Shown: positions 13,627 through 61,479 of the stretch, piece after piece
How positions within the stretch are numbered: position 1 is the stretch's first letter
Layout: each line of letters opens with the position of its first letter
Assembly: GCA_016213405.1 (NCBI GenBank)
Contig: JACRAM010000116.1
Location: 64,269-128,268, forward strand
From: Bacteroidota bacterium
GTDB taxonomy: Bacteria; Bacteroidota; Bacteroidia; Palsa-948
DNA length: 64,000 bases
Direction of reading: 5' to 3'
Made by a program: the position numbers and the translations under genes
The notes under the pieces: model-generated
What the model was told of the DNA's origin: nothing
The model's input: only the letters and a program-made list of their open reading frames with translations
The model's database searches: none

Positions 13627-13705
13627 GAGGGCATAAAAACCAAGCGAAGAGTAGAAAGTTGAAAGCATGCTGGCGCTTGTACCAATGAAATTTCTTATCT
13701 CTATG

Positions 13706-14017
13706 GTGGCAAATAATTTCCCACAGGTGACAAACAATTTCCCATAGGTGACAAATAACTTGCCACTGGTGACAAATCAAATCCCGTAAGAGCGAGCCGT
13801 TCCGCTTCGTCACTGAACAATTCCGCTTCGTCACAAAGGCATTTAGTTCTGTCATTAAACAATTTAGTCCCGTCACTAAACAATTTAGTCCCGTCACTAA
13901 ATATTTAGTCCCGTCACTGAATCATTCAGTCCCGTCACTGAATCATTTAGTCCTTTGGCTGAATCACTGCGCCTCGTCACTAAAACATTTAGTCCCGTCA
14001 CTAAATCAATAAAACAT
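13706..14017. repeat. Tandem array A, 21-bp period
   Basis: About 14 units begin with GTGAC or GTCAC and repeat every 21 bp, with rare 19-20 bp units. The first four are of the type GTGACAAAC-AATTTCCCATAG; later units read GTCACTAAAC-AATTTAGTCCC. Many units are small palindromes: ACTAAA pairs with TTTAGT, and where the left arm reads ACTGAA the right arm can read TTCAGT, a compensatory change. No spacers separate the units, so it is not a CRISPR. The flanks (13627-13705 and 14018-14074) hold no gene; 14045-14072 holds short AAACCTT/AACCTT repeats. Confidence 0.9.
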
Positions 14018-36488: not shown

Positions 36489-38525
<2,037 letters not shown>

Positions 38526-38555
38526 AAATGTTGCCCCGGCCCTAAAGGGAGAGAT

Positions 38556-38900
38556 ATCACAAAGAGATAATGTGATATCTTTTTGCATCAATTTAATCTC
38601 ACAAAGAGACAATGTGATGTCTTTTTGCAACAATGTTGTCTCACAAAGAGACAATGTGATGTCTTTTTGCAACAATGTGATCTCACAAAGAGACAATATG
38701 ATGTCTTTTTGCAACAATGTGATCTCACAAAGAGACAATGTGATGTCTTTTTGCAACAATGTTGTCTCACAAAGAGACAATATGATGTCTTCTTGCAACA
38801 ATGTGATGTCACAAAGAGACAATGTGATGTCTTTTTGCAACAATGTTGTCTCACAAAGAGACAATATGATCTCTTCTTGCAACAATGTGATGTCACATTG
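38556..38900. repeat. Tandem array B, exact 21-bp period
   Basis: Sixteen consecutive 21-bp units run from 38556 to 38891 without an insertion or deletion, plus a partial 17th. Two unit types alternate: CTCACAAAGAGACAATGTGA-type and GTCTTTTTGCAACAATGTGA-type, giving a 42-bp higher-order period. Several units are palindromic (ATCACA...TGTGAT; TTGTCTC-ACAAA-GAGACAA across a junction). Because 21 is a multiple of three, both strands stay open and give false repetitive reading frames. A palindromic half-site at about 38533-38551 precedes the array. Region 38901-39100 holds no gene, only a short repeat near 39055-39085. Confidence 0.93.
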
Positions 38901-39100: not shown

Positions 39101-39751
39101 TTAAGGTCGAGAAACAAAAAAATTTAATATCATACCAACAGAAAGCCCATGTTTTTTCAATTCCGGATTCTCAGATAATAAATCATCTACAGAAACTCCT
39201 AACTTATTAGCAATAGAATCAATAGTATCTCCTTCTTCCGCTTTATACTGCGCCCAACCACTTTCTGACCCGACAACTATTGGTATCCCATCATCTGTGG
39301 TAAGAATATTACCGTCCTCATTTAATAAAAAATGACCTGTGCGCTTTAGAATATTTTTCCGTGATAAAGATTTCATCGCAACATCAAGTTGTTTTTTATA
39401 AAACAATAATAGTCCATCTTTTGTTTTTATTGTATCCACAGCTATTTTGATTCGCTTTTGATAATCTTCCATATTTCTGTTACTAATTTCGAATGCTGTT
39501 TGCATTTTTTTTAAAGTATCAAGAGTACAACGTAAGACTCGACCTGTGCTATCTAAATCCTTGGACAATTTCTGTTCTTTTATTTCAAAAGATTTTATTT
39601 TCAAAAACGCACTAATATTTGTATTAAAAGCGGTTATTAGGATAATTAAAAGTCCTACTATGGATAAAAATGGCTGTACCCACCATCTTTTTAGATTTTT
39701 AATTTCACCTTGTAGTTTTTCCTTTTCAAGGTCTTCTTTAGTTCTTTCCAT
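39101..39751 (-). CDS. Membrane-anchored coiled-coil protein with LysM domain
   Basis: A 216-residue protein. A charged N-terminus is followed by one membrane helix at about 29-48 (FLSIVGLLIILITAF), a predicted coiled coil at about 55-130 rich in Lys, Glu and Leu, and a C-terminal LysM-like domain (YKAEEGDTIDSIANKLGVSVDDLLSENPEL) at about 168-212. LysM binds peptidoglycan or chitin-like glycans. Its role beside a nuclease-like gene is unclear. It lies 62 bp after the end of that gene on the same strand. Confidence 0.72.
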   Translation of the reverse strand: MERTKEDLEKEKLQGEIKNLKRWWVQPFLSIVGLLIILITAFNTNISAFLKIKSFEIKEQKLSKDLDSTGRVLRCTLDTLKKMQTAFEISNRNMEDYQKRIKIAVDTIKTKDGLLLFYKKQLDVAMKSLSRKNILKRTGHFLLNEDGNILTTDDGIPIVVGSESGWAQYKAEEGDTIDSIANKLGVSVDDLLSENPELKKHGLSVGMILNFFVSRP

Positions 39752-41057: not shown

Positions 41058-42104
41058 TTACAACCCACTTTTCTGAATAAAAGCATTCAACTTGTTCATT
41101 TTATCTGCGTTGTTCAATACCTGTTCCTGCGCGGCTTTAATAAGATACTGTGTGGTTTCTTTGCTTGAGTTGCTCATATCGGCATGCTCTTCGTTATCAA
41201 TATTAATGGAGAGCCGGAGGTAATTGCCGTCTTCCATTATTTCGTTCATTTCATAATCGGTGGTTTTGTTCACACCGCGCATCATTACATCGCTTATCGT
41301 TTTTGCCCAGTAGAGTTCGCCTTTGGTGGCGCTTGCATTATCTTTTATTGGCGCGGCATAGGTGCCGGTGCCAACGGAGAGCACAAAAATATTTTTGAAG
41401 TCTACATCTTCTTTTCTGGCAATGCTTTTATCATAAAAGGCATAGTTTTTTACAAACTCTGCGAGTGCCGCCATGGAGGGGTTGTTTACATACACGCCAC
41501 CGTCAATGCAATTGCGGTGGGGTTTTTCTGTATCTGGGTTCTTGGGATAGTTAAATATGTAGGTAGGCAGGTAGGTGGGTCCCGCAGAGGTGGCGCGGCA
41601 GATATCATAAAGCAGTGCATCGAGGTTTTTGTTCACCGCGTTATCGAGCGACTTGAAGAACAACGGCACATTGTTGTTGAGGTCATACGTGCTTACCATA
41701 ATATTGGTGAGGCAATCTGAAATGCGGTGTTCGCCCAGCACATCCTTAAATACTTTTGCAATGCCTTCTTCCCCAAAGGTGGGACGGAAGATATCTTTGA
41801 GCGCATGCCATTTATTGCCGAGCCAGCCGCGCTGCGGAAAAATATCTTTTCCGTGATCGATGTACACATTTAAAATATCATTAATGGTGTATTTGGCTTT
41901 CTTCTCCGCTGCATTTTTATCGCGCAGTGTAATGGCTGAGGTGATGAGTCCGCCTGTGGAGGTTCCTGCAATGAGGTCAAAGCATTCCCAGATTTCTTTT
42001 CCTGCATAGAGTTTCAGCCGGGTTTTGAATTCATTCAGTATGGTAAGGGGCACCACGCCTCGTAGTCCGCCTCCGTCAATGCTGAGTATGCGTATGGTTT
42101 TCAT
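41058..42104 (-). CDS. Patatin-like phospholipase
   Basis: A 348-residue cytosolic patatin. The oxyanion motif is SIDGGGLRGVVPL at 9-21, the nucleophile elbow GTSTGG holds Ser49, and the dyad Asp lies in the DGG motif (CIDGGVYVNNPS) near residue 198. The Ser-Asp dyad predicts lipid acyl hydrolase activity. Patatins of this size are effectors in CBASS defence (CapV), but no cyclase gene is adjacent. A housekeeping or stand-alone role is equally possible. It lies 14 bp downstream of a secreted-protein gene on the same strand. Confidence 0.85.
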   Translation of the reverse strand: MKTIRILSIDGGGLRGVVPLTILNEFKTRLKLYAGKEIWECFDLIAGTSTGGLITSAITLRDKNAAEKKAKYTINDILNVYIDHGKDIFPQRGWLGNKWHALKDIFRPTFGEEGIAKVFKDVLGEHRISDCLTNIMVSTYDLNNNVPLFFKSLDNAVNKNLDALLYDICRATSAGPTYLPTYIFNYPKNPDTEKPHRNCIDGGVYVNNPSMAALAEFVKNYAFYDKSIARKEDVDFKNIFVLSVGTGTYAAPIKDNASATKGELYWAKTISDVMMRGVNKTTDYEMNEIMEDGNYLRLSINIDNEEHADMSNSSKETTQYLIKAAQEQVLNNADKMNKLNAFIQKSGL

Positions 42105-60180: not shown

Positions 60181-60243
60181 GAGAGGTGGGAGACGTTGTA
60201 ATTGAAAATTGAGAATGGATAATTGAGGAGAAAAATACCGCAT

Positions 60244-60411
60244 AAGAGGAGGCAGAAATGAAATAAGAGGAGCAAGTTGCCGCATAAGAGGAGGCAGAAA
60301 TGAAATATGAGGAGGCAGATACCGCATAAGAGATGGCAGAAATGAAATAAGAGGAGGCAGATACCGCATAAGAGGAGGCAGAAATGAAATATGAGGAGGC
60401 AGATACCGTGT
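60244..60411. repeat. Tandem array C, exact 21-bp period
   Basis: Eight consecutive 21-bp units with no indel start at 60244, 60265 and so on to 60391. Each begins AAGAGGAGGCAG or ATGAGGAGGCAG, and the second half alternates between AAATGAAAT and ATACCGCAT types, giving a 42-bp superperiod. Diverged partial units flank both ends. Both strands stay open, so translated repeats there are artefacts. A CCCCTTCCCCTAAAGGGG palindrome follows at about 60441-60459. Confidence 0.93.
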
Positions 60412-60519
60412 AAGAGGTCAAAAAAACGCTAAAAACATACCCCTTCCCCTAAAGGGGTAAAAAAACAATAAAAACAACTGCTCCATATAGGACTGGGGCA
60501 AAAATTAAAAATTAAAATC

Positions 60520-61479
60520 ATGAAAGAAGTAAAACCGACCTACATGTGTACGGAATTAGAGTTGTATGCCATTGCGGAGCTTGGCTATAACAATCTGGCA
60601 ACGGATTTGGCTGTATTTGCGGCAAAGAAAGCAAAGTACACGGCTGCATTTTTGACGGCATTGCGCGCTACGCGCAGCGCTGCGATGGCATTGCCGGATG
60701 AGGAGGCGCGGAATGTGGAGCATCAGATTCTCCGGAATGTTCTGATCAGCGACTTTTTGCCGCCAGTGCTTGATAATTTTAATGTGCTGAAGGGGTATAT
60801 AAAGGATGCGTGGCCGAATGAAAAACCTGAGCCGCGCTATGAGGCAGCGGGAGGAAAAAAGTATGCGAAGGCGGCTGGAAAGAACTGGGAGAATGTGGCG
60901 GGGCTGAATACTTCGATGCAACAATTTATTGCGGCACACAGCGCGAAACTTACCACACCGGGCGGTATGACCGGAGCTTTTGTTACGAAGGTAAATGATG
61001 ACGCGACTAACTTTAACAGTAAGTATGAATTGTTTGTTCAGGCACGGGAAACGGGTGTGGCGCGGGGAGAAAAAATAACCGCGAATAATTTGCTGCACAA
61101 AGAGCTGATGGCAGTTTTGGAGGATGGGGCGGAACGGGTGTGGAGGAATTTTCCGGATAAGCGGAAGAATTATGTTTTTGCCACGCTGAAAAATATTGTG
61201 AGCCCTCCGGGGAGCGCGAGTTTGAAAGTGATTGTGATACGGGGTGATGATACGGTGGTGCCCAATGTGCCTGTGACGATAAAACAAGAGGGGGCTACGC
61301 TGGCTACGCGGAGCGCGGGAATTACGTTGAGTACGGATAAGGAAGGGGTGGCATTATTTGAAAGCGCTGACCCTGGGAGGTATGCGGGGGTGGTGGTGGT
61401 GGATGGGGTGAAGATAAATTTTACGAAGGAGATTGATACGGGTGTGAAGGCGCGGATAACGGTGGAGGTAGCCCCCTAA
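60520..61479 (+). CDS. Hypothetical protein with C-terminal Ig-like/regulatory domain
   Basis: A 319-residue protein without signal peptide or membrane segments. Residues 1-215 are largely helical and Ala-rich (AAKKAKYTAAFLTALRATRSAAM). Residues about 232-319 form a strand-rich domain (SASLKVIVIRGDDTVVPNVPVTI ... TDKEGVALFESADPGRYAGVVV) like a carboxypeptidase-regulatory or SpaA-type fold. Base composition is visibly more G-rich than the neighbours, and the gene sits directly beside array C. No family was recognised. Possibly a recently acquired gene. Confidence 0.7.
   Translation: MKEVKPTYMCTELELYAIAELGYNNLATDLAVFAAKKAKYTAAFLTALRATRSAAMALPDEEARNVEHQILRNVLISDFLPPVLDNFNVLKGYIKDAWPNEKPEPRYEAAGGKKYAKAAGKNWENVAGLNTSMQQFIAAHSAKLTTPGGMTGAFVTKVNDDATNFNSKYELFVQARETGVARGEKITANNLLHKELMAVLEDGAERVWRNFPDKRKNYVFATLKNIVSPPGSASLKVIVIRGDDTVVPNVPVTIKQEGATLATRSAGITLSTDKEGVALFESADPGRYAGVVVVDGVKINFTKEIDTGVKARITVEVAP

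Follow-up and report, generated by a model that had tools for sequence, protein, structure and literature searches.

A 21-bp repeat array with two alternating unit types beside ligA in a Bacteroidota genome, and the class of arrays to which it belongs

The array and its surroundings

The window, a stretch of 64,000 nucleotides from the genome of a Bacteroidota bacterium, carries a tandem array (here called array B) in the gap between two convergent genes. The site is interior to its contig, which is 187 kb long; the genome as a whole comprises 3.65 Mb in 127 contigs, and array B occurs in it a single time. The locus contains the following features.

36492..38525, plus strand: gene that we take to be ligA (NAD-dependent DNA ligase), 3' end toward array B, 80-87% protein identity in congeners
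38540..38549, no strand: small inverted repeat CCCTAAAGGG between ligA and array B, read from the sequence
38556..38891, no strand: array B, 16 units of 21 bp or eight units of 42 bp (TRF extent 38553-38897)
38603..38626, no strand: example inverted repeat of the 42-bp units, AAAGAGACA-ATGTGA-TGTCTTTTT, -6.9 kcal/mol as RNA
38633..38657, plus strand: second inverted repeat, TTGTCTC-ACAAA-GAGACAA, flagged as terminator-like in 3 units
39101..39751, minus strand: LysM-domain protein gene, 3' end toward array B, convergent with ligA

Tandem Repeats Finder (TRF) described array B as 8.2 copies of period 42 with 90% matches, 0% indels and a score of 550. Steps of 21 bp from 38556 yield 16 full units to 38891 and then a degenerate 17th, the copy number being that of the assembly. 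The original prediction held that sixteen exact 21-bp units follow ligA and a palindromic half-site and never slip out of register. Both the position, with the CCCTAAAGGG inverted repeat placed between the end of ligA at 38525 and the array, and the register, which is kept at every step over the 16 units, were as described. The word exact is appropriate for the length of the units (0% indels) and not for their letters, as identity is 0.55 at a lag of 21. At lags of 42 and 84 it rises to 0.90 and 0.94, which together with the TRF period of 42 bears out the proposed alternation of two unit types, CTCACAAAGAGACAATGTGAT and GTCTTTTTGCAACAATGTGAT, in a 42-bp superperiod. Between the consensi of the two half-units, 13 of 21 positions are the same, and almost all of these fall inside ACAATGTGAT. 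Comparison of the eight 42-bp units found the second and fifth identical letter for letter and the seventh one base away, with units 5-6 recurring as an 84-bp block in units 7-8 and the most diverged unit being the first, outermost one. About 12 substitution steps and no indel separate the eight units when read from the unit table. Array B was confirmed as a real repeat array, and whole-unit copying within it is supported.

CRISPR and TIGR arrays are built of tandem units with spacers that vary from unit to unit, and a Cas gene or a Nop-domain Tas gene lies nearby. Array B resembles them in its tandem units and in having two 9-bp blocks that alternate with a constant one of about 12 bp. Unlike the spacers of those systems, however, its variable blocks stay constant from unit to unit. 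The units are nearly identical, in agreement with the prediction that spacers are absent, and no match to Cas or Nop models was found among the three to four genes to the right of the array. Also to the right of the array, at 41058-42104 of the window, a patatin-like phospholipase closely resembles the phospholipase effectors of CBASS (NCBIfam 180.5 bits against a cut-off of 200; PADLOC E 3e-65). A promoter scan of the array B region found 0 sites against 2.1 expected, and an Rfam scan of the window returned RNase P and one tRNA only.

The units had also been called partly palindromic, and this was confirmed. In folding comparisons array B was better than jointly column-permuted controls on both strands, with z values of -2.4 and -1.9 against 21-column permutation and of -3.2 and -2.5 against 42-column permutation (0 of 150 controls equally good). 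In the six congeners the gene order upstream of ligA is kept to varying extent, and the place after ligA holds different genes and no such array in any of them (6/6). Because gene order breaks directly after ligA, from 38526, in all six, array B stands at the edge of variable DNA.

Arrays of 21-bp multiples in this genome and its relatives

Array B was compared with other long arrays, defined as at least 63 bp with a period of 11-110. In a sample of 688 of the 3651 kb of its own genome, a period of 21, 42 or 63 (hereafter 21n arrays) was found for 17 of the 22 long arrays, and their sequences are unrelated, so that one size is combined with differing sequences. The proportion was 3 of 8 in 300 kb from congeners and 8 of 19 in 1475 kb from 80 named loci, five of these eight coming from a single locus (L095). 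The genome of that locus, G040, belongs to an uncultured Bacteroidetes bacterium that is a distant relative, and 72 of its 79 long arrays in 329 kb are 21n. This corresponds to roughly one 21n array per 4 kb, with 71 of 74 outside gene calls. Over loci L163-L182 of the same genome, the count for the 21-bp class was 74 arrays in 329 kb, in about half of the intergenic gaps of at least 150 bp. Gaps of that size hold an array in 10 of 14 cases between convergent genes, in 10 of 21 between divergent genes and in 28 of 59 between codirectional ones. Three further arrays of the class, and one gene that neighbours an array, lie in the window.

13705..13777, no strand: array of the size class of array B, unrelated sequence (TRF)
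13829..14008, no strand: array with a 21-bp step, TRF period 62 or 42, unrelated sequence
60235..60417, no strand: array of period 42, unrelated sequence, upstream of the F1 gene (TRF)
60520..61479, plus strand: F1 gene, 319 aa, no family above the Pfam or NCBIfam cut-off, array 102 bp upstream

The two adjacent, differing arrays at 13705-14008 stand between a large repeat-rich surface-type protein and a small gene pair that presumably, from its look, is a toxin-antitoxin pair.

The preference for multiples of 21 is narrow. Long arrays of period 28, 35, 49 or 56 were absent from the own-genome and G040 samples, as were those of period 31-32 or 52-53. No motif was common to 18 arrays of the own genome, the best 4- to 7-mers being no more frequent than in shuffles, and a shared motif was rejected. 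Mismatches greatly outnumber indels inside 21n arrays, with 277 mismatches against 3.6 indel bases in 15 arrays of the own genome and 970 against 36 in 67 arrays of G040, counts that stand without a neutral baseline. Unit length does matter, and the evidence for this is genome-wide rather than within array B. The alternation seen in array B is confined in G040 to arrays to which TRF assigns a period of 42 or 84, so that the two-type pattern is one sub-type; it was rejected as a rule of the class.

Folding was likewise uneven. A dyad at p<0.05 was detected in 7 of 29 arrays and in 20 of 61 arrays of G040. Mean fold z in G040 was -2.31 (se 0.41, n=18) for period-42 arrays and -0.87 (n=33) for period-21 arrays, and for 63- and 84-bp units the z values are inflated because the full-column control wipes their inner 21-bp similarity. 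The array at 60235 of the window has a z of +0.3. The folding tendency across the class is real, yet not universal.

Repeats of this kind have been described before. Subirana and Messeguer (2021, PMC8161180) describe Bacillus repeats of 20-21 nt and 52 nt whose size is constant while the sequence varies, and state that repeats of 20-23 nt occur across many groups; nucleoid proteins or small RNAs are their suggestion, and they also remark on the two helical turns. A secondary trait, reported for some Bacillus, is a short sequence that most repeats of one species have in common. Their Genes paper of the same year (PMC8625621) reports that the 52-nt repeats are transcribed. Array B, with head-to-tail 21-bp half-units in a 42-bp unit, is a member of this constant-size, variable-sequence 20-21-nt class, which it resembles in unit length and in the presence of several differing families per genome. 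That class is mostly non-coding; over array B no gene is called, and open-frame tests gave mixed results. Apparently unlike the class as PMC8161180 describes it, multiples of 21 (42, 63 and 84) are common here, the units hold inverted repeats, the arrays of the own genome have no common short sequence, and arrays of the class lie upstream of a gene family, F2 (see below). Why some bacteria keep repeats of the same length and any sequence is a question raised in that literature.

Two other repeat types were compared. Heptanucleotide repeats (STRR, TAACTGA arrays) are intergenic in some Bacteroidetes (MacGregor 2015, PMC4679880, citing Mrazek 2007), and short heptamer arrays are also common in the own genome, where heptamers account for 22 of 23 tandem repeats of period <=10 in 688 kb. 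The 21n units differ in having no 7-bp sub-period, self-similarity at 7/14 bp showing no excess in 29 arrays or in the G040 arrays. Together with the lack of periods 28, 35, 49 and 56, this indicates that heptamer slippage is not their source, and a heptamer origin was rejected. REP/BIME elements (PMC3733652) are intergenic and partly palindromic like array B, but REPs are one sequence in many scattered copies, whereas array B is found at one place in 3.65 Mb.

Origin of the array and competing explanations

On balance, array B is probably a fast-turnover non-coding satellite in which blocks are duplicated in register with the aid of hairpins and whose unit length is set across the whole genome, not by selection at the site. 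The identical and near-identical units and the 84-bp blocks give it the look of a satellite in which whole units were duplicated as blocks. Growth would proceed by slipped-strand replication or unequal recombination, each event adding a whole block of 42 or 84 bp with the inverted repeats assisting. The 21-bp quantum might be imposed across the genome by the replication or recombination machinery, or by a DNA-coating protein that would read helical phase and shape and not sequence. For array B itself we infer no local function at its site. The original prediction had offered selection on spacing or copying of whole units; the copying is supported, and about 12 substitution steps are too few for the lack of indels in array B to show selection on spacing. 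Spacing selection is possible, and across the class strict multiples of 21 fit two helical turns and also a duplication process with that step. The rarity of indels inside 21n arrays, which spacing selection would explain directly, counts against the satellite reading.

A protein-binding platform, in which a dimeric, shape-reading DNA-binding protein coats the arrays at sites every two helical turns and purifying selection keeps the spacing, would account for the dominance of multiples of 21 among long arrays, the inverted repeats above chance and the scarcity of indels, and is also favoured by the distribution of G040 arrays over the three gap types. We nevertheless regard it as unlikely, as the arrays share no motif, most 21-bp arrays have no significant dyad and array B is missing from all six congeners; moreover, helical phasing would largely tolerate the absent periods of 31-32 and 52-53. 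Termination of transcription seems less probable again. Array B does sit between convergent genes, its 42-bp units hold a hairpin ending in a T run, and 4 terminator-like sites were flagged in the region (3 within array B) against 0.5 expected, all of which would suit a tandem bidirectional terminator serving ligA and the LysM gene. Against this, the stems are poor in GC and weak, divergent or codirectional gaps also contain arrays of the class, and folding is uneven across arrays, as at 60235. With gene contexts so mixed, a terminator role for the whole class was rejected.

That array B encodes a heptapeptide repeat protein, 21 bp being seven codons, is very improbable. Open frames of 114, 124, 143 and 152 codons do overlap it and open frames exceed some controls, but any stop-free unit with a length that is a multiple of 3 stays open throughout, the codon model places no gene on array B, and the congeners lack the array. 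Open-frame tests across arrays were mixed: eight plain 21-bp units gave 37 open frames against about 34.4 in dinucleotide-preserving shuffles (summed), while one test gave 73 against 57.2 (p 0.003) and another 46 against 32.1 (0 of 100 controls). The excess in some tests means that coding may hold for some arrays, a point against the satellite reading. An assembly artefact, or the collapse of a longer array, is just as hard to credit for array B, which has distinct point differences among its units and sits inside its contig. Many G040 contigs do start or stop inside such arrays, which indicates that short-read assemblies handle them badly, and array B may hold a different number of copies from the one assembled.

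Arrays and the F gene families

The 21n arrays are linked, at the level of the class, to an unnamed protein family, F2, and this link is new here; a literature search found no paper tying such arrays to a gene family. The F2 seed (L029:1022-1720) and the four F1 seeds were chosen for the arrays beside them, and F2 was searched by sequence only. Matches to F2 numbered 18 places distributed over 5 of 40 relatives. They were also found in 3 genomes of a set of 296 from the phylum, in 7 of 14 chosen genomes and, among 20 named genomes, in two, L083's and L095's; the relatives with named records are mostly Bacteroidia. Under one rule, 41 of 58 F2 places have a 21n array no more than 450 bp upstream, at a median of 101 bp from the match start, and at the others it is downstream in three cases and overlapping in one. 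The counts cover 8 of 19 F2 matches in G006 and 9 of 11 in G198. By genome, G333 was weakest (3/11), and G001 and G003 had none (0/2). In five shared genomes, 27 of 33 F2 genes have an upstream 21n array compared with 23 of 786 background genes (Fisher p 4e-31), the background being approximate because genes were called with our codon-usage finder; one count gave 16/484 and another, with a stricter gene score, 15/444. Summed, there are 33 21n arrays in 1258 kb of F2-positive samples, G040 left out, against 2 in 660 kb of F2-negative ones. F2 carriers are array-rich genomes within the genomes sampled, and F2, lying directly downstream of arrays, offers an identifiable family that marks them. 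Among the 18 named genomes without F2, a single array near ligA is present in each of two, L145 and L146.

F1 is a four-member family among the genes flanking arrays of the own genome, where all four, selected as seeds for this reason, are beside an array. Twelve non-seed members found by profile search had the array upstream in six cases, downstream in one and absent in four, with one cut by a contig end. Eight weak F1 matches (L225-L231, L235) were dropped because only the C-terminal domain matched and the proteins are about 600 aa long. No F1 member was confirmed in viral contigs and no F2 match was found in plasmids. Neither family reached an NCBIfam cut-off; Pfam and PDB held nothing convincing for F2, and the single Pfam pass was the C-terminus of one F1 member, as CarboxypepD_reg. 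A single-sequence AlphaFold model of F1 (pLDDT 36) gives a rough outline with a helix-rich N-terminus and a beta-rich C-terminus.

Arrays upstream of F2 and F1 genes may influence the expression of those genes, and the link argues that at least some arrays are functional, which counts against the satellite reading. A six-frame profile search found no F-type gene near array B, so the link bears on the class and not on the function of array B. More speculatively, and with the odds against it, 21n arrays and F-type proteins (F1, F2 and perhaps F3-F5) could be two halves of one system, in which the arrays would be made, spread or coated by the protein itself or by a co-inherited enzyme, guided by spacing and hairpin shape rather than sequence. 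Such a system would fit the richness of F2 genomes in arrays of unrelated sequence and the array some 100 bp upstream of most F2 genes, and array B would be a gene-free outpost of it.

Several smaller observations concern these families. An F1 paralogue at L027 6702-7667 has 84% identity to the gene at 60520-61479 and an array of clearly different sequence. The congener G001 has a broken F2 copy (L306, G001:C59) with an internal stop and no upstream array, and its 106-kb sample is without period-42 or -63 arrays. Further small families, F3-F5, adjoin G040 arrays (L168 6870-7751, L181 5011-5952, L174/L175 1-735, L164 9762-10709, L163 16429-17337), with the array upstream of F3 and F4 and downstream of F5. 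The L083 record, titled Candidatus Saccharibacteria, contains a ligA 65% identical to the Bacteroidota one and a 21-bp array, and its genome has F2 genes; its label or bin looks wrong.
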